Origin: a virus
Length of the DNA: 23,227 bases
Reading direction: 5' to 3' (one strand)
IMG/VR virus record: IMGVR_UViG_3300028559_000200
Coordinates: 1-23,227 of that record
The position numbers were made by a program, and so were the translations under genes. Below are positions 1-19,613 of the stretch, in pieces. Numbering within the stretch: the first letter of the stretch is position 1; each line of letters begins with the position of its first letter. Under the pieces are notes generated by a model. That model had not been told where the DNA came from. It did not search any database and saw only the letters and a list, made by a program, of their open reading frames with translations.

Positions 1-364
1 CCTGTATACCTGTTCCACCTGTAAACCCCTGTAAGCCTTGTAAGCCTTGAAGACCTTGTAAACCCTGTAAGCCTATAATACCCTGAGTACCTTGAGTACC
101 TTGAGTGCCCTGAAGACCTTGTAGACCTTGAGTTCCCTGTATACCTGTTCCACCTGTAAACCCCTGTAAGCCTTGAAGACCTTGTAAACCCTGACTACCC
201 TGTAAGCCTATAATACCCTGAGTGCCTTGAGTGCCTTGAGTGCCCTGAAGACCTTGTAGACCTTGAGTTCCCTGTATACCTGTTCCACCTGTAAACCCCT
301 GTAAGCCTTGTAAGCCTTGAAGACCTTGTAAACCCTGTAAGCCTATAATACCCTGAGTACCTTG
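1..364. repeat. 135-bp tandem repeat, about 2.7 copies
   Basis: Copies begin at 1, 136 and 271, giving a constant 135-bp period (45 residues, 15 Gly-X-Y triplets). Positions 1-94 and 271-364 read as identical. The middle copy has the same length but has lost one 9-bp unit (TAAGCCTTG) and gained another (GACTACCCT) a little further on, so the spacing is preserved. The third copy diverges after 364. The array may extend beyond the left edge. It is a higher-order repeat built on the 9-bp coding unit of the collagen-like gene. Confidence 0.9.
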
Positions 365-556
365 TCTGCCCTGTAAGCCTTGTAGACCTTGAGCACCTAT
401 AGTGCCTTGGGAACCTATAGTTCCTTGAGCTCCTGTAGTACCTTGTGTTCCTTGTCTACCCTGTAAGCCTTGAACACCTTGCAGGCCTTGAACACCTTGA
501 ACACCTTGAACACCTTGAGGTCCTAATGCTCCAGTACCGCTAAAAATTAATGCCAT
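2..556 (-). CDS. Second collagen-like fibre protein, N-terminal part (runs off left edge)
   Basis: An open frame begins with ATG at 556 and stays open to the left edge, so about 185 N-terminal codons are present and the C-terminus is outside the window. After a short leader (MALIFSGTGALGPQG) the protein is entirely Gly-X-Y triplets, mostly G-L-Q, G-T-Q and G-V-Q, with occasional G-I-I and G-F-T-G-G-T blocks. It resembles the 1984-residue fibre nearby but lacks that protein's long non-collagen head. The ATG lies 3 nt past the stop of the 246-residue gene; a purine run (GGGAGGGGG) precedes it, but that run also encodes the upstream protein's last residues, so it may be a coincidental ribosome site. 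Inferred to be a virion fibre, from family knowledge of collagen-like phage fibres and from its position among structural genes. The DNA carries 135-bp tandem repeats (see separate entry). Confidence 0.85.
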   Translation of the reverse strand, partial: MALIFSGTGALGPQGVQGVQGVQGLQGVQGLQGRQGTQGTTGAQGTIGSQGTIGAQGLQGLQGRQGTQGIIGLQGLQGLQGLQGLQGFTGGTGIQGTQGLQGLQGTQGTQGTQGIIGLQGSQGLQGLQGLQGFTGGTGIQGTQGLQGLQGTQGTQGTQGIIGLQGLQGLQGLQGLQGFTGGTGIQ

Positions 557-1310: not shown

Positions 1311-1318
1311 TATTTATA
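1311..1318 (-). promoter_or_regulatory. T4-like late promoter element (TATAAATA)
   Basis: The reverse strand reads TATAAATA, identical to the T4 late -10 consensus. It is 10 nt upstream of the ATG of the 246-residue gene and includes the TAA stop of the upstream fibre gene. If it is active, transcription would begin only a few bases before the start codon. Confidence 0.5.
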
Positions 1319-4300
1319 GCGCTATAGAGAAAGCTATAGCTTGGTTTCTTGAAATCCATTCACCGGAATTGCCCTGTTGGGCGTAGACGGTACCAGTGGC
1401 TGAAAGATTACCTGAAAGGGTAAGAGTTACATTAGGTTGTACTCCAATACCTAGTCTAGTATTAGCAGCATCAAAAATAAGAGCAGGTACCCCTGAGCGA
1501 ATTCTAGGTGTTGACAGATCTCCACTTTGTACAAATATTGGATAGTGAAGAGTTCCAGTAGTAGTTGCTGTTGGAGTTATAACACCTGTTGGCCCTTGAA
1601 CCCCCTGAGTTCCTTGTCTGCCTTGTAACCCTTGAGAGCCCTGAGAGCCTGTTGCTCCCTGAGACCCTATAGTGCCTTGAGTTCCCTGTAACCCTTGAGA
1701 GCCCTGAGAGCCTAAAGTGCCTTGAGTTCCCTGTCTACCTTGCAAGCCTTGAAGACCTTGAGTGCCTTGAGTTCCTTGAATACCAGATAAACCGACACTA
1801 CCAGTAAATCCTTGTAGTCCTTGGGTGCCCTGAAGGCCTTGTCTGCCTTGTAGACCTTGGGTACCCTGAGAGCCTGTAGCACCCTGAGAGCCTGTAGCAC
1901 CTTGAGAGCCTACAATTCCCTGAGACCCGATAATGCCCTGCAAGCCTTGAAGACCCTGTAAGCCTTGAGAGCCTGTAGCTCCTTGAGAACCTATGATACC
2001 CTGAGAGCCAATAGTGCCTTGAAGACCTTGAGTTCCTTGTCTACCTTGTAAGCCTTGAAGACCTTGACTGCCTTGAGAACCTATAGCTCCTTGAGAACCT
2101 ATAACTCCTTGAGTGCCCTGTACACCTTGCAAGCCTTGAAGACCTTGACTGCCTTGAGAACCTATAGTTCCTTGAGAACCTATAATACCTTGAGTTCCTT
2201 GTCTGCCCTGAAGTCCTTGTAAGCCTTGTAGACCTTGACTGCCTTGAGAACCTGTAGCTCCTTGAGAGCCTATAACCCCTTGAGTGCCTTGTAAGCCTTG
2301 ATTACCTTGAAGTCCTTGAGGCCCTATAATCCCTTGAGTTCCTTGAGTGCCCTGCAAGCCTTGAAGACCTTGAAGGCCTTGATTACCTTGCAACCCCTGA
2401 AGGCCCTGACTACCTTGAGAGCCTATAACCCCTTGAGTGCCCTGTACGCCTTGCAAGCCTTGAAGACCTTGAGTTCCTTGATTACCCTGAGAACCTACAA
2501 CCCCTTGAGTGCCCTGTACGCCTTGCAAGCCTTGAAGACCTTGAGTTCCTTGATTACCCTGAGAACCTACAACCCCTTGAGTTCCTTGTCTGCCCTGAAG
2601 TCCTTGTAAGCCTTGTGCACCCTGTAAGCCTTGTGCGCCCTGTAAGCCTTGAGCACCTTGGGAACCTATTATACCTTGTAAGCCCTGTAAACCTTGCAGG
2701 CCTTGAAGCCCCTGGCTACCCTGAGGCCCTATAATACCTTGAGTTCCCTGTAAGCCTTGAGTTCCCTGTAAGCCTTGACTGCCTTGAGAGCCTATAATTC
2801 CCTGTGTTCCTTGTCTACCTTGTAATCCCTGTAAGCCTTGAAGCCCCTGACTACCTTGAGAACCTATAACACCCTGAGTTCCCTGTAAGCCTTGAAGGCC
2901 TTGAACACCTTGTGTACCTTGAAGACCTTGAACTCCTTGTAAGCCTTGAACACCTTGTGTACCTTGTAGACCTTGTGTACCCTGAGAGCCTTGAGCTGCC
3001 GCCTGCCCTTCTCTGCCTTGTAAGCCTTGCAGGCCTTGAAGACCCTGTAAACCTTGCAAGCCTTGAAGCCCCTGGCTACCCTGAGAACCTGTAGAGCCTT
3101 GCGTGCCTTGCGTGCCTTGAAGACCTTGTAAGCCCTGTAGTCCCTGTAAGCCTTGAGTTCCCTGTAAGCCTTGAGTCCCTTGTGTCCCTTGAGCTCCCGT
3201 AGTTCCCTGTGTACCTTGTAAGCCTTGAGTTCCCTGGGAACCTTGAGCAGCTGCTTGTCCTTCTTTACCCTGTAAGCCTTGAAGACCTTGAAGACCCTGA
3301 CTACCCTGGGAACCAATAACACCCTGAGGACCTATAATACCTTGAGTTCCTTGTCTACCTTGAACCCCTTGTAGTCCTTGTAGACCTTGAGTTCCTTGAG
3401 ATCCTATAGCACCTTGAGCTCCAATAAAACCAGAAACACCTTGAGTACCTTGAACTCCCTGCAAACCTTGAGTACCTTGAACACCTTGAGTACCTTGAAC
3501 ACCTTGAAGGCCTTGCAGTCCTTGAGATCCTATAGTCCCTTGGATCCCTTGAGTTCCCTGCAAACCCTGTAAACCTTGGGTACCCTGAATACCTATAATA
3601 CCCTGGGAACCAATAGTGCCTTGTAAACCTTGCAATCCTTGTAATCCCTGCAAACCTTGAGCACCTTGGGAACCTATTGTACCTTGAACGCCTTGAACGC
3701 CTTGAACGCCTTGCAAACCTTGAACACCTTGCAAACCCTGAAGTCCTTGCAACCCCTGAGAGCCTATAATACCTTGTAGGCCCTGAAGACCTTGTAGGCC
3801 TTGACTGCCTTGAGAACCTATTATACCTTGAGTGCCTTGAACTCCTTGTAAGCCTTGAACTCCCTGAAGACCTTGAAGCCCTTGAATACCGATAACGCCT
3901 TGCAAACCTTGTAAACCCTGAAGTCCTTGAACACCCTGAAGACCTTGTAAACCTTGAGAACCTATAACCCCTTGTACGCCCTGAATACCTTGAGTCCCTT
4001 GAACTCCCTGAATACCTTGAGTTCCTTGAACACCTTGTAAGCCTTGAACACCTTGTAAGCCTTGTAGCCCTTGTAAGCCCTGAAGGCCCTGTGTGCCTTG
4101 TATGCCTTGAGAGCCTATAGTCCCTTGGATCCCTTGATCACCTTGTAAACCTTGAAGACCTTGTAAACCTTGAAGACCTTGTAAGCCTTGTGTGCCTTGA
4201 GAGCCTATACTTCCCTGAACACCCTGAGAACCTATAGTGCCTTGAAGACCTTGTAAGCCTTGAACTCCTTGTAGACCTTGTAGACCTTGTAACCCTTGAG

Positions 4301-7268
4301 TTCCTTGAGAGCCTTCAACTCCTTGAGAGCCTATAATACCCTGTAGACCCTGAAGACCTTGTATGCCTTGAGTACCTTGATCTCCTTGTAAGCCTTGAAG
4401 GCCTTGTAATCCTTGAAGACCTTGTAGACCCTGTGTGCCTTGAGAGCCTATTATACCTTGAGTTCCCTGTGTGCCTTGAGAGCCCACTGTTCCCTGAACC
4501 CCTTGAGAGCCTATAGTACCTTGTAAACCTTGAACACCTTGTAAGCCTTGAAGACCTTGTAAGCCTTGTGTACCTTGAGAGCCTATACTTCCCTGAACGC
4601 CTGATTCACCTGTACCTCCAGTAATACCTTGAACACCTTGAGAGCCTTGAAGACCTTGCAAGCCTTGAAGGCCTTGCAGCCCTTGAGTGCCTTGAATACC
4701 AATCTCTCCTTGAAGACCTTGTAAGCCTTGAAGACCTTGCAGGCCCTGTAGTCCTTGAAGACCTTGAGTACCTTGAACACCAATCTCTCCTTGTAAGCCT
4801 TGAATGCCCTGTAGTCCCTGAAGGCCTTGACTGCCTTGTAGTCCTTGTAAGCCTTGCAAACCTTGAAGTCCTTGAGTGCCTTGTAAACCTTGCGGCCCTA
4901 TTATACCTTGAACACCTTGAAGTCCCTGTAAGCCTTGTGTGCCTTGAGTACCTTGATCACCATCGAAACCTATCGTACCCTGGGTACCTTGTAAACCTTG
5001 AGAACCTATAACCCCTTGAAGACCTTGTGTTCCTTGAAAACCTATAACACCCTGTGTACCTTGAGCCCCGATCTCGCCTTGTAAGCCTTGTAACCCTTGA
5101 GTTCCTTGTAAGCCTTGAGAGCCTGTAATACCTTGAGAACCTATAGTTCCTTGTAGACCTTGAGAACCTATAGATCCCTGTACGCCTTGATCCCCTATAA
5201 GTCCTTGTAAGCCTTGAATACCTTGAGATCCCTGAACACCTTGTTCACCAAATATGCCTTGTAAGCCCTGAATGCCTTGCAGACCTTGAAGACCTTGTGT
5301 GCCTTGATCCCCTAATAGCCCTTGAAGCCCTTGAAGACCTTGAGATCCCTGAACCCCTTGTTCGCCCAATATACCCTGTAAGCCTTGAGTGCCTTGTAAA
5401 CCCTGAATGCCTTGTAAGCCCTGTGTACCTTGTAAGCCCTGTGTACCTTGCAGGCCTATAGTCCCTTGTAGACCTTGAGAGCCTATTACACCCTGCAAGC
5501 CCTGAAGACCTTGCAAGCCTTGAGAACCCTGAAACCCTAAATTGCCTTGTAAGCCTTGAGGGCCTATAGTTCCTTGTAACCCTTGCAAGCCCTGAAGACC
5601 TTGCAAACCCTGAAGACCTTGAAGTCCTAACGCCCCTTGTAGGCCTTGAGAGCCTATAGAACCTTGTAAGCCTTGTGTACCCTGAAAGCCAGAAAGACCA
5701 GTACTACCTGTACTGCCTTGAATACCCTGAGAGCCTATAGTTCCCTGGGTACCGATTCCTCCTGTCTCTCCTGAGGTTCCTTGAGTGCCTTGGCGCCCTA
5801 AAGTGCCCTGGGTACCTTGAGTGCCGTCAATACCTGCTGTACCTGTAGCACCTCGCAGACCTTGAGTGCCTTGAGTGCCTTGTGCTCCTTGAATACCTAG
5901 TAAGCCCTGAACTCCCTGTATGCTAAGGCCTGAAAGACCTAAAGTTCCTTGCACACCTTGTAATCCTTGAATACCAGATAGTCCTTGAATGCCTATAACA
6001 CCTTGAAGACCTTGTACCCCTTGAGTACCTTGAGTGCCCTGCAGACCCTGAGTTCCCTGAACCCCTGATAACCCTTGTAGACCCTGTGTGCCTTGCGTAC
6101 CCTGGAGTCCCTGTAACCCCTGAAGACCTTGTAAGCCTTGAAGGCCCTGCAACCCCTGCAAACCCTGCAGGCCTTGTGCACCTTGAGGGCCTTGTAGACC
6201 TTGAGTACCTTGAGTGCCTTGTGCACCTTGAACTCCTTGTATGCCCTGTAAGCCTTGTATGCCCTGTAAGCCTTGAGATCCCTGTGACCCCTGTAAACCT
6301 AATGGTCCTTGAAGTCCTTGAGTACCTGATAACCCCTGTATGCCCAACATACCCTGAACTCCTTGAACACCTTGAGATCCCTGCAACCCCAGAACACCTT
6401 GAAGTCCTTGCGTACCTTGTAACCCTTGTGTTCCTTGTAGGCCCTGATTACCTTGTAAACCTTGTATGCCTTGAAGCCCCTGTAACCCTAGTGTTCCTTG
6501 TACACCTAAAGCGCCCTGTAAGCCTTGAACTCCTTGTAAACCCTGAAGACCTTGAGTTCCTTGAGTTCCTTGATTTCCTATAATTCCTTGAAGTCCTTGT
6601 AAGCCCTGAACACCTTGAGTGCCCTGTAAGCCTTGAACACCTTGAGCGCCTTGTAAGCCTTGAACACCTTGAGTGCCCTGTAAGCCTTGAAGCCCCTGTA
6701 AACCTTGCAAGCCTTGAAGCCCCTGACTACCTTGAGAGCCTATTAATCCTTGAACACCTTGAACCCCCTGAATTCCTTGTTCTCCAGCAACACCTTGTAC
6801 ACCCTGTATACTTGTAATATTAGTACTAAATGTTATTGTTTGAGGTAAAACGCTCGGGTCAGTAGTTATAGAGATATTATCTCCGGGTATAAAAATTACC
6901 GTATCAAGACCTAAAGCAGTTAAAGGAGGTGAAGTAATATCATAGCCACTTACCTCCCAAAATTTAAATGTACTATTTAAACCTATCTTAACAGCACCGC
7001 TACTTAAATCTATAACATCAAAACCTGAATTGTCATCAAAACGAAGAGCACTAATACCGGTTAATACATTAAAAATATTATCGTTATTAATTTTACTTAC
7101 TTCAAAGGTATTATTATTATTACCGATACCAGGTATACCTTGAGGTCCTGGAGGACCTTGAGGGAATGAATACTCAATAACTGTAGACTCAGCTGATACC
7201 AACGCCACATTAACATTTACATTCTCGACAGTTGTAGAGAGATCTATTAAAAAGGTATCAGCAGCCAT
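1314..7268 (-). CDS. Giant collagen-like tail fibre protein (1984 aa)
   Basis: Domain order: a non-repeat head (about residues 1-154) that contains one short canonical collagen stretch ([12 protein letters not shown], about residues 38-49); a Gly-X-Y region from about 155 to 1893 (about 580 triplets); and a 90-residue C-terminal tip. The repeats are nearly proline-free: X is mostly Leu, Thr, Val, Ser or Ile, and Y is mostly Gln. The tip contains the run [17 protein letters not shown] and then SATGTVYA, similar to the LGIG...L.V.GN segment common near the ends of phage tail-spike proteins. Two Ala-for-Gly interruptions (GQAAAQG) and at least one two-residue insertion break the register. The gene follows the 113-residue structural gene with a 1-nt gap and starts without a Shine-Dalgarno sequence. 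Role inferred: a long receptor-binding or decorative fibre. The C-terminal 'adhesin' role is a guess. An assembly error in so repetitive a region is possible, but the frame is intact throughout. Confidence 0.92.
1590..6810. repeat. 9-bp coding repeat tract of the collagen-like region
   Basis: On the minus strand the tract is an almost uninterrupted series of 9-nt units of the type CAAGGNNTN, each encoding one Gly-X-Gln triplet. Synonymous variation (CAA/CAG, GGT/GGC/GGG/GGA, TTA/CTT/CTG) is scattered through it, so it is not a simple clonal satellite. Higher-order units occur locally, for example 72-bp copies at 2431-2574. The antisense open frames across this stretch are by-products of the repeat. 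Confidence 0.9.
2431..2574. repeat. 72-bp tandem duplication inside the fibre gene
   Basis: Two near-identical 72-bp copies (2431-2502 and 2503-2574) encode a 24-residue block containing [19 protein letters not shown] related, more diverged block begins at 2575. The near identity suggests recent expansion by slippage or unequal recombination. Confidence 0.8.
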
Positions 7269-7269
7269 A

Positions 7270-7611
7270 TTATTTGGTTATATCAAAATAAATTTCCCAC
7301 TTACCTTCCATATAAGTCTTTATAATACCTGTGGGATAGGTTATTTGAATATCATATAAATATGTTGCAGGGGGTATATCGATGACGATAGCGGGAATAG
7401 TAAATGCTGAAAGAGAAGGTAAAACAGAAATAGTAGATGTGGTTGTTGATAGAGAGAAAGCGGGCGGAGAATCATAATCTTCTCTTAACTCTATTGTTAT
7501 AATAGTGTTAGAAAGATTTACAGGTACACCATTGACTGAAATACCAATAGAATTAATTCCGTCCCAAGTATCACCCCTTCTGTGTCTAGGAAAGTTATAG
7601 GTGTAGGCCAT
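7270..7611 (-). CDS. Small virion protein resembling a BppU-type baseplate/fibre N-terminal domain (113 aa)
   Basis: The sequence opens [19 protein letters not shown], then has an NGVPVNLSN turn, and ends with [20 protein letters not shown] followed by [13 protein letters not shown]. This layout (a GDT start, a 'V-G-x-P-V-x-L' strand, then 'Y-x-Y-D-I-x' and 'G-x-W-x-I' strands) resembles the beta-sandwich N-terminal domain of BppU-like baseplate proteins and short phage proteins found beside fibre genes. The match is from memory of the family and has not been searched. It lies between portal and fibre genes and is probably an attachment or baseplate-associated piece. CATAAATA, a late-promoter-like word, ends 7 nt before its ATG. 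Confidence 0.8.
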
Positions 7612-7618
7612 ATACCTA

Positions 7619-7626
7619 TATTTATG
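7619..7626 (-). promoter_or_regulatory. T4-like late promoter element (CATAAATA)
   Basis: The reverse strand reads CATAAATA, one mismatch from the T4 late consensus. It lies 7 nt upstream of the 113-residue gene and between that gene and the portal stop. Confidence 0.4.
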
Positions 7627-7629
7627 GGT

Positions 7630-9537
7630 TTACGCTGGAGGAGTTGAAGGTGTTGAAGCTCCTGTAGCCTGGGTTGGTGGTCCGGATTCTGGGGGTGCTC
7701 CTGCTCCGGCTTCTGCACCAGGCCCTGCCGCTCCTGTCTCTACCCCGGCTTCAGGTGCCGGAGCTGTTCCTCCAAATTCAGGAATCTCAGAACCTCCTCC
7801 ACCGCCTCCGCCGAGTGCTGGTGCCCCTCCTGCCATCTCTCCTCCTTCAGGGGCAACCCCGGCCTGGGCAGCCATTTGCTCTCTCCAGTTCGGTCCCATA
7901 TTCTGAATCTGTGAAAGCTCCCACAACATAGCAGAATCTTTTCGAAGCCATTCTCTATTCTCTTTCATCTGTTCATCTGACCACTGTAAATAATATTTTT
8001 GTGAATAAGATTTAGCTATAGAATCGTTTTGAGTTGCTGAGTTAAAGTTTTCAAACTTCATTTGCAGCAATTGCTGATCTCTCATTGCCATGAACGAGGT
8101 AGGAACATTGAACTCAACCTGTACAGCACGCTCTCTGAGTTTGTACTGCTTCCAAAAACCCTTCATCTTCAAATGCGCAATAAAGGTGTCTCGAATACCC
8201 ATTGCAAATTGTCTTTGAATGCGCATTACAAAGCGAGCAAACCTTAGCTCTTCTCTTGTAATCTCAGCTCCGTCCTTAAACACTCCTCCATCCTCTGACA
8301 TAAAACGTGAGGTAGGCACTTTAAGAGAGTTATAAAGCTTCTTAAGGAAGTAATTTAAGTCATCAAGCTGTCCTAAATTCTGACCTGCAGGAAGAGAATC
8401 AACAGTAGAACCATTGCCCTGGGCATCTTTAGTAAACCAATACGCATCGAGCATGGATTGAGGATCATAGATATTAGTAACCCGGCCTCCTGAGCCTTGC
8501 GATGAATCAAAATTCTTCTTAGTCCAATACGACTGCATGAGACGTTTGAGATAAGCCTCAGCCTTAGGTGGTGGCATGGAACCGGTGTAGATAGTAAAGC
8601 GAAGACGCTCAGGTGCTCTTACAAGTCTGTAAATAACAATTGAGTCCTCAACAAGTGATAACTGACGGTAAGCTCTCTTTGCATTCTCAATAAAGGGCAG
8701 ACGGATTGACTTATACTCGTTCCAGATACCAGAGTTAATATAAGTGACCTGAGCTTTGTTCATGAAGAACAATTCTTCTTGATCCTTACGATTCATTGAT
8801 GTAGCCGGACCTACAACGGGCTTACGAATTAAAAAGCCTTTAACCATTTCATTCTGAACGTTCTGATAAACAGGGTTAATAAGTTCAGAAGGAATAGAGA
8901 CAAGACCCACTATACCTAAATCCTTCTTATCATCTAAAATAATATTCTCAAAATATAACTCCCCGTCAATAAGAAACTGTCTAAAGTACTCCCAGCCTTT
9001 GTCCTCTAAGTCAAATATTTCAATAAACTTCTTATACTCTTTCTCAACTGTATCCTTAACCTCTTTACTATAATCCCCTCTTAAATTAAACTGTATAATA
9101 TTATCATTGTCATCCTTAACGATACACTCATCGCAAATCTCGTCGATACAATCTGCTAGCTCAGCAAAAGCAGCCATACGACGATAATCCTGTAAGCGTC
9201 TAGTCTTGTCCTTATCTACATTAGCATAGATAAATGCTTGGTAATCCTTGTTGAGCGTAATAGCCCCTGGAGCCCCTGGTCCGCCTTGAAAAGAAAGTTC
9301 TGGGTCATTTAGGAAAACAGACTGATCTTGAATGATCTCTTCTCTTTTAGGTGCTGCTCTCTTAAAGTCCTGGAACCTTGGGTTCCGTTGCATCATTGAG
9401 TCTAAGATTTGATAAGCATATGGGAGCCGAGAAACAAAAGCACCAAGTAAAGTAGTTGAGGGAAAGGCCTGATCTTGAACGGGACCGGTAGTGTTCCCAG
9501 GGATAGCATTATTATAAGTGTATGCTTGATGAATCAT
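7630..9537 (-). CDS. 20: Portal vertex protein, T4 gp20 family
   Basis: The portal forms the dodecameric DNA-entry ring at one head vertex and is the docking site for the terminase and then the neck. T4 gp20-family landmarks are visible: a RRMAA...DEICDE helix around residues 119-137, FLIDGELYFENIILD around 188-202, the strongly conserved VEDSIVIYRLVRAPERLRF around 296-314, PKAEAYL around 324-330, LPAGQNLGQLDDLNYF around 382-397, and KKLYNSLKVPTSRF around 399-412. At 635 residues it is about 110 longer than T4 gp20 (524). Much of the excess is a low-complexity Gly/Ala/Pro tail from about residue 550, including a GGGGGGG run, probably disordered. The start is the first ATG after the divergent intergenic gap; a near-consensus late element (CTTAAATA) ends 6 nt upstream. 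The head genes that usually follow gp20 in T4 (21, 22, 23) are not adjacent here. Confidence 0.97.
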   Translation of the reverse strand: MIHQAYTYNNAIPGNTTGPVQDQAFPSTTLLGAFVSRLPYAYQILDSMMQRNPRFQDFKRAAPKREEIIQDQSVFLNDPELSFQGGPGAPGAITLNKDYQAFIYANVDKDKTRRLQDYRRMAAFAELADCIDEICDECIVKDDNDNIIQFNLRGDYSKEVKDTVEKEYKKFIEIFDLEDKGWEYFRQFLIDGELYFENIILDDKKDLGIVGLVSIPSELINPVYQNVQNEMVKGFLIRKPVVGPATSMNRKDQEELFFMNKAQVTYINSGIWNEYKSIRLPFIENAKRAYRQLSLVEDSIVIYRLVRAPERLRFTIYTGSMPPPKAEAYLKRLMQSYWTKKNFDSSQGSGGRVTNIYDPQSMLDAYWFTKDAQGNGSTVDSLPAGQNLGQLDDLNYFLKKLYNSLKVPTSRFMSEDGGVFKDGAEITREELRFARFVMRIQRQFAMGIRDTFIAHLKMKGFWKQYKLRERAVQVEFNVPTSFMAMRDQQLLQMKFENFNSATQNDSIAKSYSQKYYLQWSDEQMKENREWLRKDSAMLWELSQIQNMGPNWREQMAAQAGVAPEGGEMAGGAPALGGGGGGGSEIPEFGGTAPAPEAGVETGAAGPGAEAGAGAPPESGPPTQATGASTPSTPPA

Positions 9538-9543
9538 TTATAT

Positions 9544-9551
9544 TATTTAAG
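9544..9551 (-). promoter_or_regulatory. Near-consensus late promoter element (CTTAAATA) for portal
   Basis: The reverse strand reads CTTAAATA followed by ATATAA and the portal ATG. It differs from TATAAATA at the first two positions. It lies in the 55-nt gap between the portal and the plus-strand cassette, which must hold divergent promoters for both directions. Confidence 0.35.
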
Positions 9552-9592
9552 GTTAGGCTGGTATTCTTCAATCGATAATATACTATATCTGT

Positions 9593-9811
9593 ATGAATTC
9601 AAATATGCACATAGAGACTCTAGCCTGGCTTGACAGGCAAATTGATGATATTCATGCACAATCCGTCTTAGTAGGAGAGCTGTTACTAGATGAAGACGAT
9701 CCTAAAATACTTGAAAAATACGATAATAAACTTGCAGAGCTAGAAAAAGAGCTCAACAATATTAACAACAAAATTGAAGTAGAAAGAAGAATGCTCGCTA
9801 AAAAATTATGA
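9593..9811 (+). CDS. Small predicted coiled-coil protein of unknown function (72 aa)
   Basis: The protein is short and charged; heptad-like leucines in ILEKYDNKLAELEKELNNIN and the surrounding residues (about 38-70) predict a helical hairpin or coiled coil. No family was recognised. An alternative start is Met5 at 9605. Its end overlaps the thyX start by 4 nt (ATGA), so the two are probably translationally coupled. It is the first gene of the plus-strand early-type cassette, diverging from the portal gene. The region just upstream (GATAATATACTATATCTG) is AT-rich with possible -10-like words but no clear -35. Confidence 0.75.
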   Translation: MNSNMHIETLAWLDRQIDDIHAQSVLVGELLLDEDDPKILEKYDNKLAELEKELNNINNKIEVERRMLAKKL

Positions 9812-10467
9812 AAGTTACATTAAAAGCCATTACTAGTCCGTCTCCGGAACTCCAAGAAAAAGGTATTAACGATGCCGAAAGGTTTATGGTATATTGTGCC
9901 CGGGTATCCAATCCGGCAAATCAATTTAATACTGATACCTCAGACCGTTTGATCAATTACTGCATTAAGCATCAGCATTGGTCTATATTTGAACAAGCCT
10001 TCTGCACCTTTGAAATTGAAACTTCTAGAGCCGTTGCAGCTCAGATATTGAGACACCGCTCCTTTACCTTTCAGGAATTTAGCCAGCGCTATTCAACAGC
10101 AACTCTTCTTGAACCTTTTGAGTTACGCAAACAAGGTAAAACAAACCGACAGGTAGGAGATGAGGTCTTTACTGTACAAGAGGATCCAAAACTTTTTGCT
10201 AAAATAGATAAGTTGCAAGAAGAACAGATCAACGTATACAATGAAATGATACAACAAGGTATTGCAAGAGAGAGTGCCCGGATGGTCTTACCACTTAACA
10301 CTCAGACGACTTTGTATATGAGTGGATCATGTCGTTCCTTTATTCATTATATTCAATTGAGAGCAAAGGAAGAGACACAGAAAGAGCATCGAGAGGTAGC
10401 GCTTGAGATGAAAAAAGTCTTCTGTGAAGTCTTTCCTAATATTGCAAAAGCCTTAAAATGGGGTTAA
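9808..10467 (+). CDS. thyX: Flavin-dependent thymidylate synthase ThyX
   Basis: ThyX converts dUMP to dTMP using methylene-tetrahydrofolate, with FAD and NAD(P)H as reductant. The signature RHRX7S is present as RHRSFTFQEFS (residues 82-92), followed by QRYS. Other family features include the N-terminal ARVSNP region and the C-terminal SGSCRSFIHYIQLRAKEETQ segment with conserved Arg residues in the substrate site. The length of 219 residues is normal for ThyX. It follows the coiled-coil gene with an ATGA overlap. Together with the dCMP deaminase at 20330 it gives the phage a dCMP-to-dUMP-to-dTMP route independent of a host ThyA. The sequence appears intact, with no inserted intron. Confidence 0.96.
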   Translation: MKVTLKAITSPSPELQEKGINDAERFMVYCARVSNPANQFNTDTSDRLINYCIKHQHWSIFEQAFCTFEIETSRAVAAQILRHRSFTFQEFSQRYSTATLLEPFELRKQGKTNRQVGDEVFTVQEDPKLFAKIDKLQEEQINVYNEMIQQGIARESARMVLPLNTQTTLYMSGSCRSFIHYIQLRAKEETQKEHREVALEMKKVFCEVFPNIAKALKWG

Positions 10468-10476
10468 TATATTATT

Positions 10477-10668
10477 ATGCACGGACGATTTCCAAAACTT
10501 AATAAGCGTTATCTAATTAATGAACTCTTTCCTCTCCTTTCAAAAGAAGAAAAACGTTCTGTTTACTTCCCAACTAAGGAAGACCGATCTAACAGAGGAA
10601 CTAAACAGGACATGAGAATGTCCAGAGAAGAGCAAGAGTTGTACGAAAAACAGTATAAAGCTAAATAA
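10477..10668 (+). CDS. Small basic protein of unknown function (63 aa)
   Basis: A Lys/Arg/Glu-rich soluble protein with no recognised domain. It lies 9 nt after thyX and 1 nt before the GKGD-motif protein, so it looks like a genuine member of the cassette. The upstream sequence (TTAATATATTATT) has no Shine-Dalgarno motif, as for most genes here. Its operon position is the main evidence that it is real. Confidence 0.7.
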   Translation: MHGRFPKLNKRYLINELFPLLSKEEKRSVYFPTKEDRSNRGTKQDMRMSREEQELYEKQYKAK

Positions 10669-10669
10669 T

Positions 10670-10816
10670 ATGACTTCCTCAGCAGCGGGAAAAGGAGACG
10701 ATCCCCGTCCAGTAAAAATACCCAAATATATTAAGAATTTCGATCAAATTAAATGGTCTAAGAACCCGCGTAAACCCACTAAGAATGTGAAGGGAAAGCT
10801 GGTTTATGTGTACTAA
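10670..10816 (+). CDS. Short conserved phage protein with GKGD-xxRP motif (48 aa)
   Basis: The translation begins MTSSAAGKGDDPRPVKIPKY, continues with a Lys/Asn/Pro-rich basic body, and ends KGKLVYVY. Short phage proteins with an N-terminal (A/S)GKGDxPRPV motif followed by an 'xxYxxNFDxIxW/F' segment are widespread as hypotheticals; this one fits (IKNFDQIKW, residues 21-29). That is family knowledge from memory, and the function is unknown. It starts 1 nt after the previous stop (TAATATG), so it belongs to the same transcript. It is easily missed because of its length. Confidence 0.75.
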   Translation: MTSSAAGKGDDPRPVKIPKYIKNFDQIKWSKNPRKPTKNVKGKLVYVY

Positions 10817-10828
10817 TTTGAATAAATA

Positions 10829-10916
10829 TTAGTAGCTCGGAAATACTAAGAGATAAAGCTTATTTGTTGTTGTCGTAACTTCGAATAAGCTCTTTTAGTC
10901 TTTGAAGAGCTATTAA
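10829..10916. other. Long multi-stem hairpin in a convergent intergenic gap
   Basis: Three nested helices can be drawn. Outer: TTAGTAGCTC (10829-10838) with GAGCTATTAA (10907-10916), 10 pairs including one G-U. Middle: ACTAAGAG (10845-10852) with CTTTTAGT (10892-10899), 8 pairs including one G-U. Inner: AGCTTATT (10857-10864) with AATAAGCT (10884-10891), 8 perfect pairs, closing a 19-nt loop. An AUAA bulge separates inner and middle helices, and a 6x7 internal loop separates middle and outer. There is no strong T-run on the plus side; the minus side is followed by a weak U-rich stretch. It may be a bidirectional terminator between the convergent gene sets, a processed small RNA, or a leader controlling the 27-codon ORF that starts at the next base. 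Confidence 0.6.
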
Positions 10917-11000
10917 ATGTTTGAACAAGCTACTTTTTCGATACTCTTTTGTATCTTTATTGCTTTTGTAATTTTAAAGGAGTGCAATAAAAAGGATTAA
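10917..11000 (+). CDS. Possible 27-residue hydrophobic peptide
   Basis: ATG at 10917 opens a 27-codon frame reading MFEQATFSILFCIFIAFVIL and then KECNKKD before TAA. Residues about 5-20 would form a single membrane helix with a positively charged C-terminal end, a plausible layout for a small phage membrane peptide. The start codon lies immediately after the 3' arm of the hairpin, and the only purine-rich stretch that could serve as a ribosome site (GAAGAG) is partly in that arm. The frame overlaps the end of the convergent 138-residue gene by 3 nt. With so few codons a chance frame is possible. Confidence 0.35.
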   Translation: MFEQATFSILFCIFIAFVILKECNKKD

Positions 11001-11413
11001 TCGGTGCCACTTAGCACAGAAATTCCAGACGACCAAGGTCTAAGCTCAAGTTGTGTCTGCTCTCCAGAATACAGGTACTTAACAGCATATTGAGTTAGTT
11101 TACCATAACCTGCCGGGTTTTGGACTATAACATCGATATAACCCGTACTAATTGGTGGAGGTATGTTTATAACTAAGGTGTTATCAAAATTAGTTGAATA
11201 ATTTGAAGGTAAGAGCTTGTAAGCTGTAAAGCCTGGATTATTAGCAGATAGTTTAGGAATAGCTGAAAAAGGGTTATAAAATGTAGTGCCAGAGAGAGGC
11301 GCCCCGGAGAGATATACTGCTTGTAGCTGCATAAAGGATTTGCCGTAAACGTTAAAAGTTGCAGATAAGCCTACAAAAGCTACTGGGGTATATGGTTTAG
11401 TTAAAAATATCAT
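10997..11413 (-). CDS. Putative virion protein with Ig/IPT-like fold (138 aa)
   Basis: The sequence alternates short hydrophobic strands with Gly/Ser/Pro turns. The pattern FNVYGKSFMQLQAVYLSG, later VINIPPPISTGYIDVIVQNP, then a GYGKLTQYAV strand, is what IPT/TIG-type immunoglobulin-like domains look like ('G-x-x-F...V.....P......V.V.N..G'). This reading comes from motif memory. The ATG overlaps the gp15 stop by 1 nt, so it is cotranscribed with gp15 and is probably a small neck, tail or decoration component. No signal peptide or membrane segment is seen. Confidence 0.78.
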   Translation of the reverse strand: MIFLTKPYTPVAFVGLSATFNVYGKSFMQLQAVYLSGAPLSGTTFYNPFSAIPKLSANNPGFTAYKLLPSNYSTNFDNTLVINIPPPISTGYIDVIVQNPAGYGKLTQYAVKYLYSGEQTQLELRPWSSGISVLSGTD

Positions 11414-12147
11414 TAGTTAATAATACTTGGTTGAGGTTGAGCTGAAAGAACTTTGCGTTCAGTTGTCAGTTCATTAAGGGCGTCAAGAGAGAGCATAGAG
11501 TTGAGACCTGATTCAGTAGAGTAGTTAGAATTAATGGTAAAGATTGTAGCTTCAGGGCCTGAAGGCTTTGATTTAAACAACCAACCCTTAAAGGTGAATG
11601 AAGTTGTACCTTCTACTCTAGCTACTGTTGTTGAATTGATATCATAAGGATAGGTTGCTGTGATGTTACCTGACCAAACAACTTGAGATCTAATTTCATA
11701 ATCAGGCATTGAAGGGGTACGCCAAGATATGATAATATAAGGGTCAAAATAAGGAACAAAATTAGTTACAATTTGATCGTAATCCTCTTGAAATCGAGTT
11801 AAGATTGTCATATTGATTGCTAGGTCAATAGGTACGGGTTGTAAAAGTTTATTAGTTTGAGTTGGGCTAGTTGAGGTCATATAAGAGCCCTGAATCTTAT
11901 TAAAAACTCTATTAGGGTCTCTTGAAATGCCTCCATTAGTTAAAGCTATAACAGGCAGTTGAAGGTTCTGAGCCTTATCTAATAAATCTGCCAGTACCCG
12001 TTGCTTAGGTGCATAGACAAAGCGGCAACGAATAGAATCCTGAGGTTCTCTTAAGTTATTATAGCGCTTGATCGTAATATCGTCCATGGCACTTGCAAAC
12101 ATCTGAATCATTGTTGAGATTTCGAACGAATAGGTATATTTCCTCAC
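11413..12147 (-). CDS. 15: Tail sheath stabiliser / completion protein, T4 gp15 family
   Basis: T4 gp15 caps the proximal end of the contractile sheath and tube and joins the tail to the neck. The order of motifs follows T4 gp15 as I recall it: an N-terminal region with MDDITIKRYN (T4 has a 'NIQIKR' segment), IRCRFVYAPKQRVLADLLDK (T4 'IRVPITYASKEHFMMKL'), ATLTRF-type ILTRFQEDYDQIVTNFVPYF (T4 'IFTRYEDDMFQIVEQILPYF'), and the late FTFKGWLFKSKP (T4 'FEVNGWMYPP'). At 244 residues it is slightly shorter than T4 gp15 (272). The start is GTG, placed 5 nt after a CATAAATA late element; an ATG further in (residue 13) would remove conserved-looking sequence. It diverges from an HNH endonuclease gene across a 44-nt gap. 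Confidence 0.85.
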   Translation of the reverse strand: MRKYTYSFEISTMIQMFASAMDDITIKRYNNLREPQDSIRCRFVYAPKQRVLADLLDKAQNLQLPVIALTNGGISRDPNRVFNKIQGSYMTSTSPTQTNKLLQPVPIDLAINMTILTRFQEDYDQIVTNFVPYFDPYIIISWRTPSMPDYEIRSQVVWSGNITATYPYDINSTTVARVEGTTSFTFKGWLFKSKPSGPEATIFTINSNYSTESGLNSMLSLDALNELTTERKVLSAQPQPSIIN

Positions 12148-12152
12148 AACTA

Positions 12153-12160
12153 TATTTATG
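12153..12160 (-). promoter_or_regulatory. T4-like late promoter element (CATAAATA) for gp15
   Basis: The reverse strand reads CATAAATA followed by TAGTT and the GTG start of gp15. At this spacing a T4-type late start site would fall on or next to the initiation codon. Confidence 0.45.
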
Positions 12161-12191
12161 TAGTTCCTTTGAAACTAGAATAAATATGTAT

Positions 12192-12953
12192 ATGGATTAC
12201 GCACGTCATTATAACAAACTTATAGAACGTGCACCAAAAATAAAACCTTTAAACTATTATACAGAAGGGCATCATATTAAACCGCGATGTATGGGTGGTA
12301 CTAATGCAGATGGAATTGCATATCTAACACCTGAAGAGCATTATATAGCTCATTTATTTCTTGTTAAAATCTATCCTGATAATCAATCTTTAGTTTATGC
12401 AGCTAATATGATGACTGTAAGTAGGGATGGGTCTAGAGCTAATAACAAAAAATATGGTTGGTTGAGAAAAAAGTGTGCTATAGCTGCTAGTTTAACACAT
12501 AAAGGGAGAAAAAGATCAGAACAAACTAGATCAAAAATAGCTGAGAGTAGAAAAGGAATAAAACTTTCTGAGCAACATCGACAAAACATTAAAAAAGCTT
12601 TAATCGGTAAATCAAGACCACCCGAAGTTATAGCTAAAATTAAAGCAGCTCAAAAGGGAAGACCGTTAACACCAAAACAAGAAGCAGCTAGGTTAGCTAA
12701 GATAGGTAAACCTAGAACAGAAGAACAAAAGCGCAAACAAAGCTTAGCAATGATGGGTAGAAAACTAACACCTGAACAGTTAGCCAATAGGGGTCCCCGC
12801 GGGCCTATGTCAGAAAAACAACGACAGGCGATTAGTGCTGCAAGAAAAGGACAACCTTCAAATAGAAAAGGTAAAAGTATGTCTGAAGAACATCGCCGTA
12901 AAATAAGTGAATCTAATAAGCGCACTTATGCTTTAAAACATAATTTACTTTAA
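12192..12953 (+). CDS. Free-standing HNH homing endonuclease with NUMOD3 repeats
   Basis: The N-terminal HNH nuclease module runs from about residue 23 to 60: a HHIKPRCMGG motif (His27-His28) then LTPEEHYIAHLFL (His50, His54). The rest is a chain of NUMOD3-type DNA-binding motifs (S/T-E/P-E-x-R-x-K-I...A-x-x-G-K/R), recognisable at RKRSEQTRSKIAESRKG, KLSEQHRQNIKKALIGK, PMSEKQRQAISAARKG and SMSEEHRRKISESNK. I chose the ATG at 12192 (MDYARHYNKLIERA) because it aligns with the start of the second HNH gene (MNYQSIYNKIITRA). An ATG two codons earlier is also possible; the longer frame from 12093 would run back into gp15. The gene sits on the opposite strand to its neighbours, between gp15 and a 119-residue gene, and its end overlaps the latter by 9 nt: a typical mobile intergenic insertion. 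Confidence 0.9.
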   Translation: MDYARHYNKLIERAPKIKPLNYYTEGHHIKPRCMGGTNADGIAYLTPEEHYIAHLFLVKIYPDNQSLVYAANMMTVSRDGSRANNKKYGWLRKKCAIAASLTHKGRKRSEQTRSKIAESRKGIKLSEQHRQNIKKALIGKSRPPEVIAKIKAAQKGRPLTPKQEAARLAKIGKPRTEEQKRKQSLAMMGRKLTPEQLANRGPRGPMSEKQRQAISAARKGQPSNRKGKSMSEEHRRKISESNKRTYALKHNLL

Positions 12954-13304
12954 AGAATCTTCTTCCCCGGCTTCTAAAACATACTTTAGAACTTCGAGCT
13001 GTACTTTAGCCTTTCCCTTAACATACTTCTTAGCATTAACAGCATCTAAGACCTCGTTAGATCTCTGGTCTACATAACTCTGAATAAACTTTAAGACTTC
13101 TCCGCCTCGGGAGGACATAAACTCCTTAGCATCCTCATTACAAATCTCTTTATAATCTGGATCGTCTGGATCAATCTCCCCGGATTCAATCTTTTCTCTA
13201 AACCCCTCTAGGTACTGGTTTTGACGGCCCTTATAGAACTTCCGTATAGCTTTACGAAAAAGTATAAACTCTTGTTCTTTAATTTGTTCTATGTCAACAA
13301 CCAT
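12945..13304 (-). CDS. Unknown charged helical protein (119 aa)
   Basis: A highly charged (Glu/Lys/Asp-rich), predicted all-helical protein with no recognised motif. It contains an acidic SGEIDPDDPDYKE stretch (about residues 41-53) and two amphipathic helices after it. The stop overlaps the end of the convergent HNH gene. The start codon lies within a small inverted repeat (CCATAA...TTATGG, 13301-13318) that could fold over the start in the mRNA. It follows the metallopeptidase-like gene by 31 nt in the same direction. Function unknown. Confidence 0.75.
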   Translation of the reverse strand: MVVDIEQIKEQEFILFRKAIRKFYKGRQNQYLEGFREKIESGEIDPDDPDYKEICNEDAKEFMSSRGGEVLKFIQSYVDQRSNEVLDAVNAKKYVKGKAKVQLEVLKYVLEAGEEDSLK

Positions 13305-13318
13305 AAAAACAATTATGG
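13301..13318 (-). promoter_or_regulatory. Small hairpin over the start codon of the 119-residue gene
   Basis: CCATAA and TTATGG form a 6-bp stem with a 6-nt loop; the ATG of the downstream gene is inside one arm. The stem is weak and AT-rich, and a regulatory role is speculative. Confidence 0.25.
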
Positions 13319-13335
13319 CTTATAGAACAATAATG

Positions 13336-13908
13336 CTACCTATAATATCTCAAATACTCAGTCTTAGGGTTATGGTACTCTACAAGGGGTAAGATCTGTT
13401 CTGGCATCCGACGAACGATCTTGGGATCGTTGTAAGGAAAGGGATACCATTTGCGATTGCGATACGTTGCCCAATAAGAGAAAAGATATGAATTAACCTG
13501 CTGACGGTACTTGGTCATATTAATATCTAGTTTAAACTTTTTAATCTTCTTCTCCGTTCTCTTCTCACAATCCCACTCCAACTCGATAGTATCCTTGAAA
13601 GCCTGAACAAGTCTGTCGTCAGCATACTTTGTACCTGAACACCATTTCTCAATCATTGTAATCCCAGCATCAGCCTTGCCCCACAATGGATGCTTCTCTA
13701 AAAACTGATCCATATGACAGGACTCGTGGACTAAGACATCCAGCCAGTCTTCTTTTTGTGCTGCTACTTTAAGATCGATATCATCAAAGTATCCTGAGCA
13801 CTTAATACCATCTGTGTCTACATGTTTAGAAGGCACGAGATGGAACCCAATGCCATGCTTCTGGCAATCAGTAGCAACCTTAGCTACTAGCTTTTGAACA
13901 TTTGTCAT
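13336..13908 (-). CDS. Putative zinc metallopeptidase (HExxH protein, 190 aa)
   Basis: Residues 58-67 read VLVHESCHMD, giving HExxH at His61-Glu62-His65, the zinc-binding and catalytic core of zincin metallopeptidases. A third ligand may be supplied by one of the acidic residues in IELEWDCEKRTEKK further on. The rest is not assigned to a named family; the C-terminal third is aromatic-rich (SYLFSYWATYRNRKWYPFPY). No signal peptide is present, so cytoplasmic action is expected. Similar single-domain HExxH proteins occur in large phages with unknown substrates. Its start overlaps the stop of the epimerase gene (ATGA), indicating coupled translation. Confidence 0.75.
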   Translation of the reverse strand: MTNVQKLVAKVATDCQKHGIGFHLVPSKHVDTDGIKCSGYFDDIDLKVAAQKEDWLDVLVHESCHMDQFLEKHPLWGKADAGITMIEKWCSGTKYADDRLVQAFKDTIELEWDCEKRTEKKIKKFKLDINMTKYRQQVNSYLFSYWATYRNRKWYPFPYNDPKIVRRMPEQILPLVEYHNPKTEYLRYYR

Positions 13909-14762
13909 GTTAAGTTACGGGCTAGGGTAGAGATGTCCCGGAGCAACGATGTCTGGGTATTAGGAAGCTGCAGTCCCAGGTCATCAATCTTTTTAGTAGA
14001 CAAGACACAGTTTGAACGATTAGCCTTAGTATTAAGATCCTTTAGATCAATGAACCGCCATCTTGAATTCTTTAAACCTCTCTCCTTCATAATCTGAACG
14101 ACCTCTTCGGCTTTTACTGGTTCAGGATTAACAACATTATAAATCCCGTAATCAGGCTTGGCGCTAATAAACCGAACTACAAACTCATCAAAGTCATTGA
14201 GAGAAGTAACTGAATTAAGTTCATTAATGAGGGTGTCGTAATTGAGAAGTTTACTGAAATAGTTCTTCCGAGTCAAGATATCAGTAAAAGGAATTCTAAT
14301 TCTAAGAACATAGCAGTTAAATTCTTTAGCAAAAGTCTCAAATACATGTTTACACTTTGAATAATAAGAAGATTCATTCGAGTAGATTCCAAAGTTTGGT
14401 GTATCTTCCTCAGTAAATTCTTTTTCATAACCGGAATAAATGCATCCAGAACCTATATGAATAAGAGGGATACCATAAGTATGACAAATTCGAACAACAT
14501 TTAAAGGGTATAAAACATTGTAGCTGTAGCAGAGCTCTTTATTGTCTTCGCAAAAATCAACATTTGGTACCCCTGTTAGTCCAAAAGCTATAATAATTTC
14601 TTTAATTTCAATATTATTTTCTTTTATATATTTCTCAAACACAGACGGATTAGTATAATCAAGCTCTGACTGAGAAAAATGTTTAAACGAAATATTATTT
14701 TTACGAAAATAGTGTGCTAAATGCGTACCAACAAAACCTTTACCGAGAATAACAGTTACCAT
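13905..14762 (-). CDS. NAD(P)-dependent nucleotide-sugar epimerase/reductase (RmlD / NRS-ER-like)
   Basis: An extended short-chain dehydrogenase with the dinucleotide motif GKGFVG (Gly7, Gly9, Gly12) and the catalytic pair Tyr134-xxx-Lys138 in SSYYSKCKH. The central region FGLTGVPNVDFCED, then GSGCIYS, FTEEDTPNFG, LRIRIPF, YNVVNPEP and the late RSNCVLSTKKI follows, as I recall it, the bifunctional 3,5-epimerase/4-reductase (NRS/ER, UER1) family that completes UDP- or dTDP-rhamnose synthesis in plants and giant viruses; plain RmlD reductases are close relatives. The length of 285 residues fits. The likely role is making a deoxysugar nucleotide for glycosylating virion components, DNA or the host surface, but no glycosyltransferase is visible in this window. 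The gene begins a three-gene minus-strand group with the metallopeptidase and the 119-residue gene. Confidence 0.82.
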   Translation of the reverse strand: MVTVILGKGFVGTHLAHYFRKNNISFKHFSQSELDYTNPSVFEKYIKENNIEIKEIIIAFGLTGVPNVDFCEDNKELCYSYNVLYPLNVVRICHTYGIPLIHIGSGCIYSGYEKEFTEEDTPNFGIYSNESSYYSKCKHVFETFAKEFNCYVLRIRIPFTDILTRKNYFSKLLNYDTLINELNSVTSLNDFDEFVVRFISAKPDYGIYNVVNPEPVKAEEVVQIMKERGLKNSRWRFIDLKDLNTKANRSNCVLSTKKIDDLGLQLPNTQTSLLRDISTLARNLT

Positions 14763-14797
14763 AAAACTATATTATTAGCATTTTATAAAATATCAAG

Positions 14798-14865
14798 AAA
14801 AAACAGCTGGTATAAATTGTTTAACAGTAAATTGCAATGAACTATCAATACGTTTATACCAGCTG
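14798..14865 (-). terminator. Possible intrinsic terminator upstream of the epimerase gene
   Basis: A perfect 13-bp inverted repeat, CAGCTGGTATAAA (14804-14816) with TTTATACCAGCTG (14853-14865), encloses a 36-nt loop. On the minus strand the stem is followed directly by TTTTTTCTT (14803 downward), the usual terminator tail. The loop is long for a terminator, so another role for the inverted repeat is possible. It would stop transcripts that run left from the GMP reductase operon antisense to the second HNH gene. Confidence 0.45.
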
Positions 14866-14911
14866 CATTGTATTTAAGTAGAGAATAAATAATATTGCAA
14901 TGAACTATCAA
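14831..14911 (+). repeat. 18-bp direct repeat of the HNH start region
   Basis: ATTGCAATGAACTATCAA occurs at 14831-14848 and again at 14894-14911. The second copy holds the start codon and first codons (MNYQ) of the HNH gene. The first copy opens a 14-codon frame (MNYQYVYTSCIVFK) with faint similarity to the following HNH codons, as if it were a degenerate duplicate of the gene start. Confidence 0.85.
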
Positions 14912-15568: not shown

Positions 15569-15571
15569 TGC

Positions 15572-16555: not shown

Positions 16556-16556
16556 A

Positions 16557-17114
16557 TTAAAATTTTGTAGTAGGTTCGTCGTCAGGATCAAAGCCATAAT
16601 GCTCCACTATACACTTCTTACACCGGGACATAACCCAACCATTATCGTATAATTTGCCTGGTTCTCCACAAATTTCACATACTTTACTAGAAAGATATGA
16701 AACATAGTCAATAGCGTTTTCAATCTGTTCGTAATATTTGTTAAATGCTTTAGTCTTCTCTTCAGGTAAAAGCTGTTCAAAGAGTTCTTGTTCATTCTCT
16801 TTTAACCCGTTACCAATCCAATACACTCTGATAGTACCATACTTCTCCTTTACTTGAGAAAAACATATAGAAGGACGGTAAAGGAAGATGTAACCTTTAT
16901 TGTCTTCGGTCTTAAATTCTTCTTTGACTTTAAACATTTCTTGATGATCTGCAAGTGCAGTAAGATAATCACAAAGGTCATCAAAGATCTTATACCAACC
17001 GTCTCCAGAAAATTCTATTCCCCAACACATACAAGTCTCTTGCGGAGACTTATTTACATCTCTAAACAGCTTCGGGTACTTAGCGATTAGCTGTTGTTCT
17101 AATTCAGGCTTCAT
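16557..17114 (-). CDS. Conserved phage protein with C-terminal zinc-binding motif (185 aa)
   Basis: Two landmarks match a family of phage hypotheticals I recall: an N-terminal 'xGDGWYKIFDDLCDYL' segment (residues about 36-51) followed by FSQVKEKYGTIRVYWIG, and a C-terminal CEICGEPGKL...GWVMSRCKKC zinc ribbon (two CxxC pairs). No activity is known to me for this family; the zinc ribbon is probably structural. The start codon overlaps the stop of the preceding 73-residue gene (ATGA). It sits immediately upstream of GMP reductase. Confidence 0.78.
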   Translation of the reverse strand: MKPELEQQLIAKYPKLFRDVNKSPQETCMCWGIEFSGDGWYKIFDDLCDYLTALADHQEMFKVKEEFKTEDNKGYIFLYRPSICFSQVKEKYGTIRVYWIGNGLKENEQELFEQLLPEEKTKAFNKYYEQIENAIDYVSYLSSKVCEICGEPGKLYDNGWVMSRCKKCIVEHYGFDPDDEPTTKF

Positions 17115-17332: not shown

Positions 17333-17338
17333 ATATAT

Positions 17339-19565: not shown

Positions 19566-19613
19566 ACCTAATATATTAGTGGACTATTTTAGAAGAGCAA
19601 GCAAAATATTGGA

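Follow-up and report, generated by a model that had tools for sequence, protein, structure and literature searches.

Collagen-like proteins have been described from several phages. EPclA, encoded by E. coli prophages, is reported to be trimeric, with a collagen part that melts at 42°C without hydroxyproline (PMC3368898). According to the same report, viral collagens on average contain 22.1% Pro and 35.3% Asp/Glu at position X, and 38.1% Arg/Lys and 13.0% Gln at position Y of the Gly-X-Y triplet (PMC3368898). On capsids, SPP1 gp12 is described as forming trimers that adopt a collagen-like fold (PMC6316719), and FibU of phage 80alpha is predicted to be collagen-like (PMC7048315). Two collagen-like genes of freshwater actinophages are reported from a variable island and might relate to host recognition (PMC10202952); collagen repeats are also reported among the putative receptor-binding proteins of pelagimyophages (PMC7029224). 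Here, the complete IMG/VR record IMGVR_UViG_3300028559_000200 (23,227 bases, hereafter the window) was analyzed; it is most likely a genome fragment, because these bases are the whole virus record. The window encodes P0001, a collagen-like protein of 1984 amino acids built largely of Gly-X-Gln triplets. We assign a probability of about 0.62 to the reading that P0001 is a trimeric, collagen-type virion fiber of a T4-like phage, about 0.5 µm long. This reading is favored because of the strict glycine period, the folded ends, the structural gene cluster, the association of one of its modules with collagen, and the phage collagen precedents.

An original prediction made from the sequence alone had placed about 580 Gly-X-Y triplets at 1314-7268. 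The coordinates proved exact, and 578 triplets were counted between residues 156 and 1897. The boundaries of the parts of P0001 were set by inspection, triplet counts, and the predicted model. The tract consists of four Gly-X-Y runs of 98, 296, 27, and 157 triplets (294, 888, 81, and 471 residues); the small number of breaks, three, is the informative figure, because the runs were themselves defined by glycine. As had been stated, position Y is mostly Gln (469/578, followed by Ile 54, Thr 16, and Leu 13), and position X is occupied mainly by Leu (212), Thr (106), Ser (79), Val (66), or Ile (44), with Ala at 21. Proline, described as almost absent, was found in 8 of the 578 triplets at X and in none at Y (0.46% of triplet residues); the short N-terminal stretch excepted from this claim was located at residues 38-47. 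Charged residues account for 30 of 1734 (D 7, E 11, K 1, R 11; net charge -6). The ratio of Ile to Leu is 44:212 at X and 54:13 at Y. Furthermore, a finer rule exists within the tract: when the runs were laid end to end, Gly-Ser-Gln followed 50 of 108 non-Gln triplets as compared to 13.4 expected and a maximum of 26 in 10,000 shuffles.

In the remainder of the window (7269-23227, six frames), the longest Gly-X-Y run comprises 3 triplets, and 200 random sequences with the length and base-step frequencies of the P0001 open reading frame (ORF) reached at most 8 consecutive triplets. Glycine codons of the tract are GGT (223), GGC (187), GGA (107), and GGG (61); such variable third positions, with the glycine period kept, are what constraint on the protein would be expected to leave. 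An identical 1984-residue protein is encoded in two further records, L002 (IMGVR_UViG_3300027730_000146) and L003 (IMGVR_UViG_3300028557_000198; L numbers denote the loci compared). The DNA of L003 differs from the window at 10 positions, all at 13423-15731 and outside the P0001 ORF. Two differences of L002 are found at positions 15818 and 15833; all others fall at 79-125 in a second collagen ORF or in the overhanging end of L002.

On the evidence of a gp20-type portal and T4-like tail genes, the window belongs to an uncultured T4-like phage. P0001 is encoded in a compact cluster with the order portal, P0004, P0001, P0003, and a second Gly-X-Gln ORF (P0002), separated by gaps of 18, 1, 13, and 3 nt. 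Relatives of P0003 occur in 32 phage records, for example, S-PM2 and S-RIM44, none of which spans 80% of the query. P0002 starts 757 nt beyond P0001 and runs off the contig; near the contig edge, L002 differs from the window, and L003 extends 45 bases further.

The beta-rich module of P0001 (residues 55-151) was used to search for relatives. The best 80 of 91 matching stretches represent 79 loci, which include the two near-identical contigs; in 74 of the remaining 77 loci, 77 module ORFs were found. These correspond to 63 distinct module sequences, 31 with collagen, so that relatedness remains in the counts. Among ORFs of at least 200 residues, 10 or more triplets anywhere in the ORF were present in 39/76 with the module, as compared to 36/366 module-free ones from the same loci. 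For ORFs of at least 500 residues the figures are 34/56 and 17/160, and for those of at least 1000 residues 23/33 and 5/40. Collagen was located on the N side of the module in 23 and on the C side in 29 of the 39 ORFs, and a run of at least six triplets lies within 40 residues of the module in 32 module ORFs. In L004, the module comes after a Lys/Asp-rich collagen. A laxer criterion (at least three N-terminal triplets, 33/77) was dropped, as three-triplet runs arise by chance. The module is associated with collagen genes and recurs widely; it may cap or nucleate collagen trimers. AlphaFold2 prediction of the N-terminal part from 40 sequences yielded beta strands at residues 55-149, with block values of the predicted local distance difference test (pLDDT) of 56-80 there.

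Relatives of the portal were found in 25 loci, of which two are the near-identical contigs, leaving 23 for comparison of the slot occupied by P0001. None of these 23 carries a slot ORF with at least 10 triplets, counted in runs of at least six; in eight contigs (L009, L011, L014, L015, L023, L024, L027, L031) less than 3 kb follows the portal, and the absence there is weaker evidence. L022 alone contains such collagen ORFs elsewhere; the ORF ahead of its portal has 17 triplets, and that located four genes after its P0004 relative has 121 (97 with Gln at Y). The N-terminal adaptor of P0001 is shared with the start of the slot genes in L024, L009, and L010 (alignment z 13.8, 8.9, and 5.0; 0 of 2000 shuffles each). 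The portal of L009 is 95% identical over residues 1-558, and the adaptor there precedes a complete protein of 346 residues without long collagen; L010 encodes a complete protein of 729 residues, likewise without long collagen, and the slot gene of L024, cut by the contig end, encodes at least 291 residues. Adaptor homology in L013, L016, and L019 is unsupported, since 62, 92, and 40 of 2000 shuffles reached the observed score. When more relatives were sought with the L024 segment, only the contigs of L024 and L009 themselves matched. Behind a common adaptor, this slot thus carries different bodies. The giant rod seems to have entered a variable fiber gene by a lineage-specific exchange or insertion.

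At an E-value of 0.1, Pfam returned Collagen as the only match of P0001. The best 25 of 42 PHROG matches comprise 15 of the category tail, two of head, and eight of unknown category, all overlapping the repeat. NCBIfam model NF038329 (streptococcal adhesin Scl2/SclB) scored 1092.3 at a cut-off of 325; the identity as an LPXTG adhesin was rejected, because the LPxTG cell-wall anchor motif was looked for in P0001 and not found. The cut-off of adhesin Lcl was also far exceeded; long Gly-X-Y repeats thus are a trap for misannotation. Matches of the tract to PDB sequences were collagens and the repetitive entry 8zxl/9ius and were not accepted as evidence of homology. The N-terminal part, the C-terminal part, and P0003 had no PDB sequence match at E 0.1 or better. 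Likewise, a phage collection searched with the N-terminal 155 residues of P0001, with P0004, and with the C-terminal domain gave no match. Direct search with the C-terminal domain returned just the two near-identical contigs; partial similarity to ORFs of L015 and L018 was seen.

The original prediction had proposed a search of metagenomic phages for a family of Gln-rich, Pro-poor repeats, and such repeats do recur: a pattern of 12 consecutive Gly-X-Gln triplets retrieved at least 120 stretches from IMG/VR. For each locus the best Gly-X-Gln ORF with at least 40% Gln at Y was taken, and 118 of the 120 listed loci were scored. Among the listed loci, complete best ORFs (n = 42) have a median of 111.5 and a maximum of 426 triplets. 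A wider set comprised 169 ORFs of at least 50 triplets from fetched loci, after removal of duplicates and of ORFs with Gly commonest at Y; here, P0001 is the longest complete ORF (582 triplets by a looser count; next 483). The claim that phage collagens are usually far shorter thus holds for complete ORFs, but open-ended ORFs of 594, 610, 619, and 633 triplets exceed P0001. Similarly, the scarcity of proline stands against published viral averages but is not peculiar to P0001, as proline at X was equally low (at most 8/578) in 50 of the 118 scored loci among the pattern matches listed. Five IMG/VR ORFs whose tracts were compared (L143, L163, L184, L072, L073) resemble P0001 in being Gly-X-Gln with 0.2-3% Pro at X and 435-626 counted triplets; unlike P0001, all five are open at the contig end, and their counts are lower bounds. 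Two of them, L072 and L073 (3-8114), are open ORFs of 2704 residues with 607 and 626 triplets, Gln-rich at Y, located two genes before a P0003 relative. In sets assembled without regard to Gln, namely the P0003 set and the module set, the commonest residue at Y is Gln in 8/19 and 19/39 ORFs and Thr in 9/19 and 17/39, respectively. L105, L110, and L111 represent another phage collagen class with Thr at Y and up to 255 triplets per ORF, encoded near P0003-type genes.

A DNA search with the tract in cultured phages gave 32 records. In the five of them whose regions were inspected, the highest triplet counts are 135 (S-CRM01), 129 (DSL-LC02), and 104 (VR25), not counting a cut 5.4-kb tail fiber gene of DSL-LC02. 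A protein search of the phage collection with 304 residues of tract sequence matched nothing, which carries no weight because low-complexity sequence is filtered in such a search. Among the titles and abstract openings listed from an open-access library, none concerned long Gly-X-Gln phage collagens. Gly-X-Gln collagens are common, with similar, mostly shorter proteins in many environmental phages; P0001 is extreme in length and compositionally distinct from published viral averages, yet it is within a broad environmental phage collagen set.

In the favored reading, the folded ends, namely the adaptor with the Pro-containing piece and the beta-rich module on one side and the C-terminal domain on the other, would hold three chains together, and the Gly-X-Gln tract between them would wind into a collagen-type triple helix. 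The rise of collagen is 0.286 nm per residue, and the tract would then measure 496 nm, in agreement with the 0.5 µm predicted, provided that a triple helix forms; a T4 virion is about 0.2 µm long. A reported average rise of 2.88 Å gives about the same length (PMC3368898). The adaptor would fix the fiber to the virion and the C-terminal end would point outward; the fiber may thereby serve in adhesion, lengthening the distance at which the particle touches or holds a host cell or another surface. The Ile/Leu contrast between X and Y fits the triple-helix propensities reportedly found by Persikov in 2000. Published host-guest propensity values were not found: in the text accessible, "Gln" and "Ile" are absent from PMC7824840, and "Gln" and "glutamine" from PMC12862961.

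Several observations weigh against this reading. Glycine is found at every third residue, as in collagen triple helix proteins, whereas richness in Pro/Hyp or charge, which is usual but not strictly defining, is not seen; with 8 prolines and 30 charged residues in 1734, the usual features of viral collagens are nearly absent. Hence, the stability of a triple helix would not be assured from the sequence. Among 112 other Q-type ORFs, 37 have a higher share of Ile at Y and 23 a lower one, the remaining ORFs being tied or having too few residues; the Ile-at-Y trend in the wider set is weaker than in P0001, and a Fisher P-value overstates this evidence because repeats are not independent. Of the module ORFs, 37/76 have no collagen of at least 10 triplets, the N-terminal model is of low confidence (mean pLDDT 59.6), and a fold search with it returned nothing from the PDB at an E-value of 0.001 or below. 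FibU of 80alpha is reported as expected to be trimeric, with density seen for only twelve copies (PMC7048315). Finally, the fiber is predicted from sequence. It is doubtful, but conceivable, that Gly-X-Gln tracts form a distinct and widespread class of phage collagens that needs neither proline and hydroxyproline nor charge pairs. In such a class, the helix would be stabilized by the regular Gln at Y, for which Ile is the usual substitute in P0001, and single fibers of about 0.5 µm, longer than the T4 virion, would become possible.

The fiber may attach at the head or at the tail. A variant of the favored reading, to which we give rather less than even odds, places it on the capsid or neck as a Hoc- or SPP1 gp12-like decoration. 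Gene order argues for the head: the P0001 gene comes after portal and P0004, and P0003 matches a PHROG of the category head and packaging. Coliphage VR25 (L315, 4071-5651) has a collagen gene between gp24 and hoc, and a gene noted as Hoc-like comes after it; in IME08 (L317, 3940-5127), a gene matching the tract lies between the same two genes, gp24 and hoc. SPP1 gp12 is reported as a capsid collagen (PMC6316719). However, the tract of VR25, the part compared, differs (Pro at X 41/104, Gln at Y 37/104), whereas the IME08 gene is annotated as tail fiber-like and fell under the 8-triplet listing threshold. The tail is suggested by the Gly-X-Gln genes of S-CRM01, which adjoin tail-collar and fiber-assembly genes before the neck genes, and by the PHROG categories, most of which, among the best 25 of 42, are tail. 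The gene positions in VR25 and IME08 by themselves suggest head-associated collagens.

It is unlikely that P0001 is made but cut, or that its long tract has little function and arose as a by-product of repeat slippage. In favor of this view, the 135-nt repeats of the neighboring P0002 have 91% matches, and L002 and the window disagree at the end of this ORF; L009 and L010 share the adaptor in complete slot genes without a long tract. Against this, the units of the P0001 tract have diverged in DNA while glycine was kept, the tract length is the same in three records, and comparable tracts recur in many contigs.

Even less probable is the alternative raised in the original prediction, that the tract packs within one chain as polyglycine-II-type bundles as in S16 gp38. 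Gly-X-X is reported to form polyproline II (PPII) helices without proline, and phage tail spikes to contain PPII bundles (PMC13243192). However, the PPII segments listed comprise 6-11 residues in sfAFP and S16 gp38 and 4-9 in ALK (PMC13243192, Table 1), and this alternative fits poorly with runs of up to 888 residues; intrachain packing is unlikely because these runs have no turns. Only two Gly-Gly steps occur in the 1742-residue tract. Single-chain AlphaFold2 prediction of the last 240 residues without alignment gave a mean pLDDT of 39.3 and no confident bundle, which is weak evidence; as a check on the original prediction it was uninformative.

Misassembly of a shorter repeat is very improbable, and the giant ORF is probably not such an artifact: although short reads cope poorly with repeats, all three records (the window, L002, and L003) terminate within the second collagen ORF, and they may have sites or software in common, the tract is identical in all three, its longest exact repeat is just 84 nt, and no 101-mer recurs.

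Coordinates of P0001, its parts, the cluster, and the flanking region are compiled in Table 1.

Table 1. Features of the P0001 cluster and matches in the region flanking it
Feature	Position	Strand	Basis
Giant collagen-like structural protein P0001, 1984 aa, ATG start	1314..7268	-	Pfam Collagen PF01391, 866.9 bits, cut-off 27.2
N-terminal adaptor, residues 1-36, STT-ENVNVNV type	7161..7268	-	alignment to same-slot genes of L024, L009, L010
Short Pro-containing collagen stretch, residues 38-49	7122..7157	-	inspection; GP.G-type stretches at same place in L010, L024
Beta-rich module, residues 55-151 (FDDNSGFDV...STFKFW)	6816..7106	-	relatives and AlphaFold2 strands
Gly-X-Gln tract, residues 156-1897, 578 triplets	1578..6803	-	triplet count
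Break 1, IQ, residues 450-451	5916..5921	-	triplet count
Break 2, AAQ, residues 1340-1342	3243..3251	-	triplet count
Break 3, AAQ, residues 1424-1426	2991..2999	-	triplet count
C-terminal non-collagen domain, residues 1898-1984	1317..1577	-	inspection
Portal protein, T4 gp20-like	7630..9537	-	PF07230, 1.3e-99
P0004, 113 aa	7270..7611	-	phrog_1084 (unknown function); relatives after portal in 14/23 other portal loci
P0003, 246 aa	560..1300	-	phrog_5838, 2.6e-12; N-terminal part common to cyanophage virion structural proteins
Second Gly-X-Gln ORF P0002, 59 triplets	2..556	-	cut by contig end; 135-nt repeat unit, 2.7 copies, 91% matches
Thymidylate synthase match	9808-10467	+	
Homing endonuclease match	14900-15568	+	
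Dehydrogenase-family PHROG match	15572-16597	-	
dCMP deaminase match	20330-20737	+	

The window furthermore encodes a tail sheath stabilizer (phrog_227, 2.7e-21). The portal matched 2496 cultured-phage records, every one below 60% identity; the 15 matches listed show 28-33% identity and include the freshwater cyanophage S-CRM01 (32.7%). A scan of GTDB genomes with the portal, which detects close relatives only, found no relative. The late-promoter motif of T4 is TATAAATA; three copies of TATAAATA occur in the window, which is chance level (31 of 100 shuffles have at least three). By eye, the start codons of portal, P0001, and P0003, three of the five in the cluster, have AT-rich sequence upstream on the minus strand without an obvious Shine-Dalgarno sequence; a weak AGG lies upstream of the P0004 start (7611), and GGGAGGGGG upstream of the P0002 start (556).

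If its triple helix were stable, P0001 would represent an extremely long natural collagen that is unmodified and contains almost no proline. It would then put to the test what stabilizes collagen, and its class of sequences could serve to make recombinant collagen without hydroxylation. As to the biology of phages, the locus suggests that T4-like phages of aquatic habitats can extend their reach when a collagen rod is exchanged into a fiber slot already present.

Compared with known systems, EPclA-D resemble P0001 as phage-encoded Gly-X-Y domains between folded domains, and a triple helix is reported for EPclA (PMC3368898); they differ in carrying 48.1% Pro at X and 14.5% Gln at Y (PMC3368898), as compared to 8/578 and 469/578 in P0001. 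S16 gp38, likened by description, shares Gly-rich PPII conformation and phage adhesion, but consists of bundled short PPII segments with turns and a GGX motif, whereas P0001 has long unbroken GXQ runs of up to 296 triplets. SPP1 gp12, also likened by description, provides an example of a phage collagen located at the surface of the virion, but is reported to have only 64 residues (PMC6316719). SCRM01_020 and SCRM01_023 of S-CRM01 likewise come from a freshwater T4-like phage and have Gln as the commonest residue at Y (82/135 and 40/60). They are shorter than P0001 (135 and 60 triplets), contain more Pro at X (27/135 and 10/60), and lie at another gene location, and the ends of the S-CRM01 collagens, judged by eye and unaligned, look different from those of P0001.

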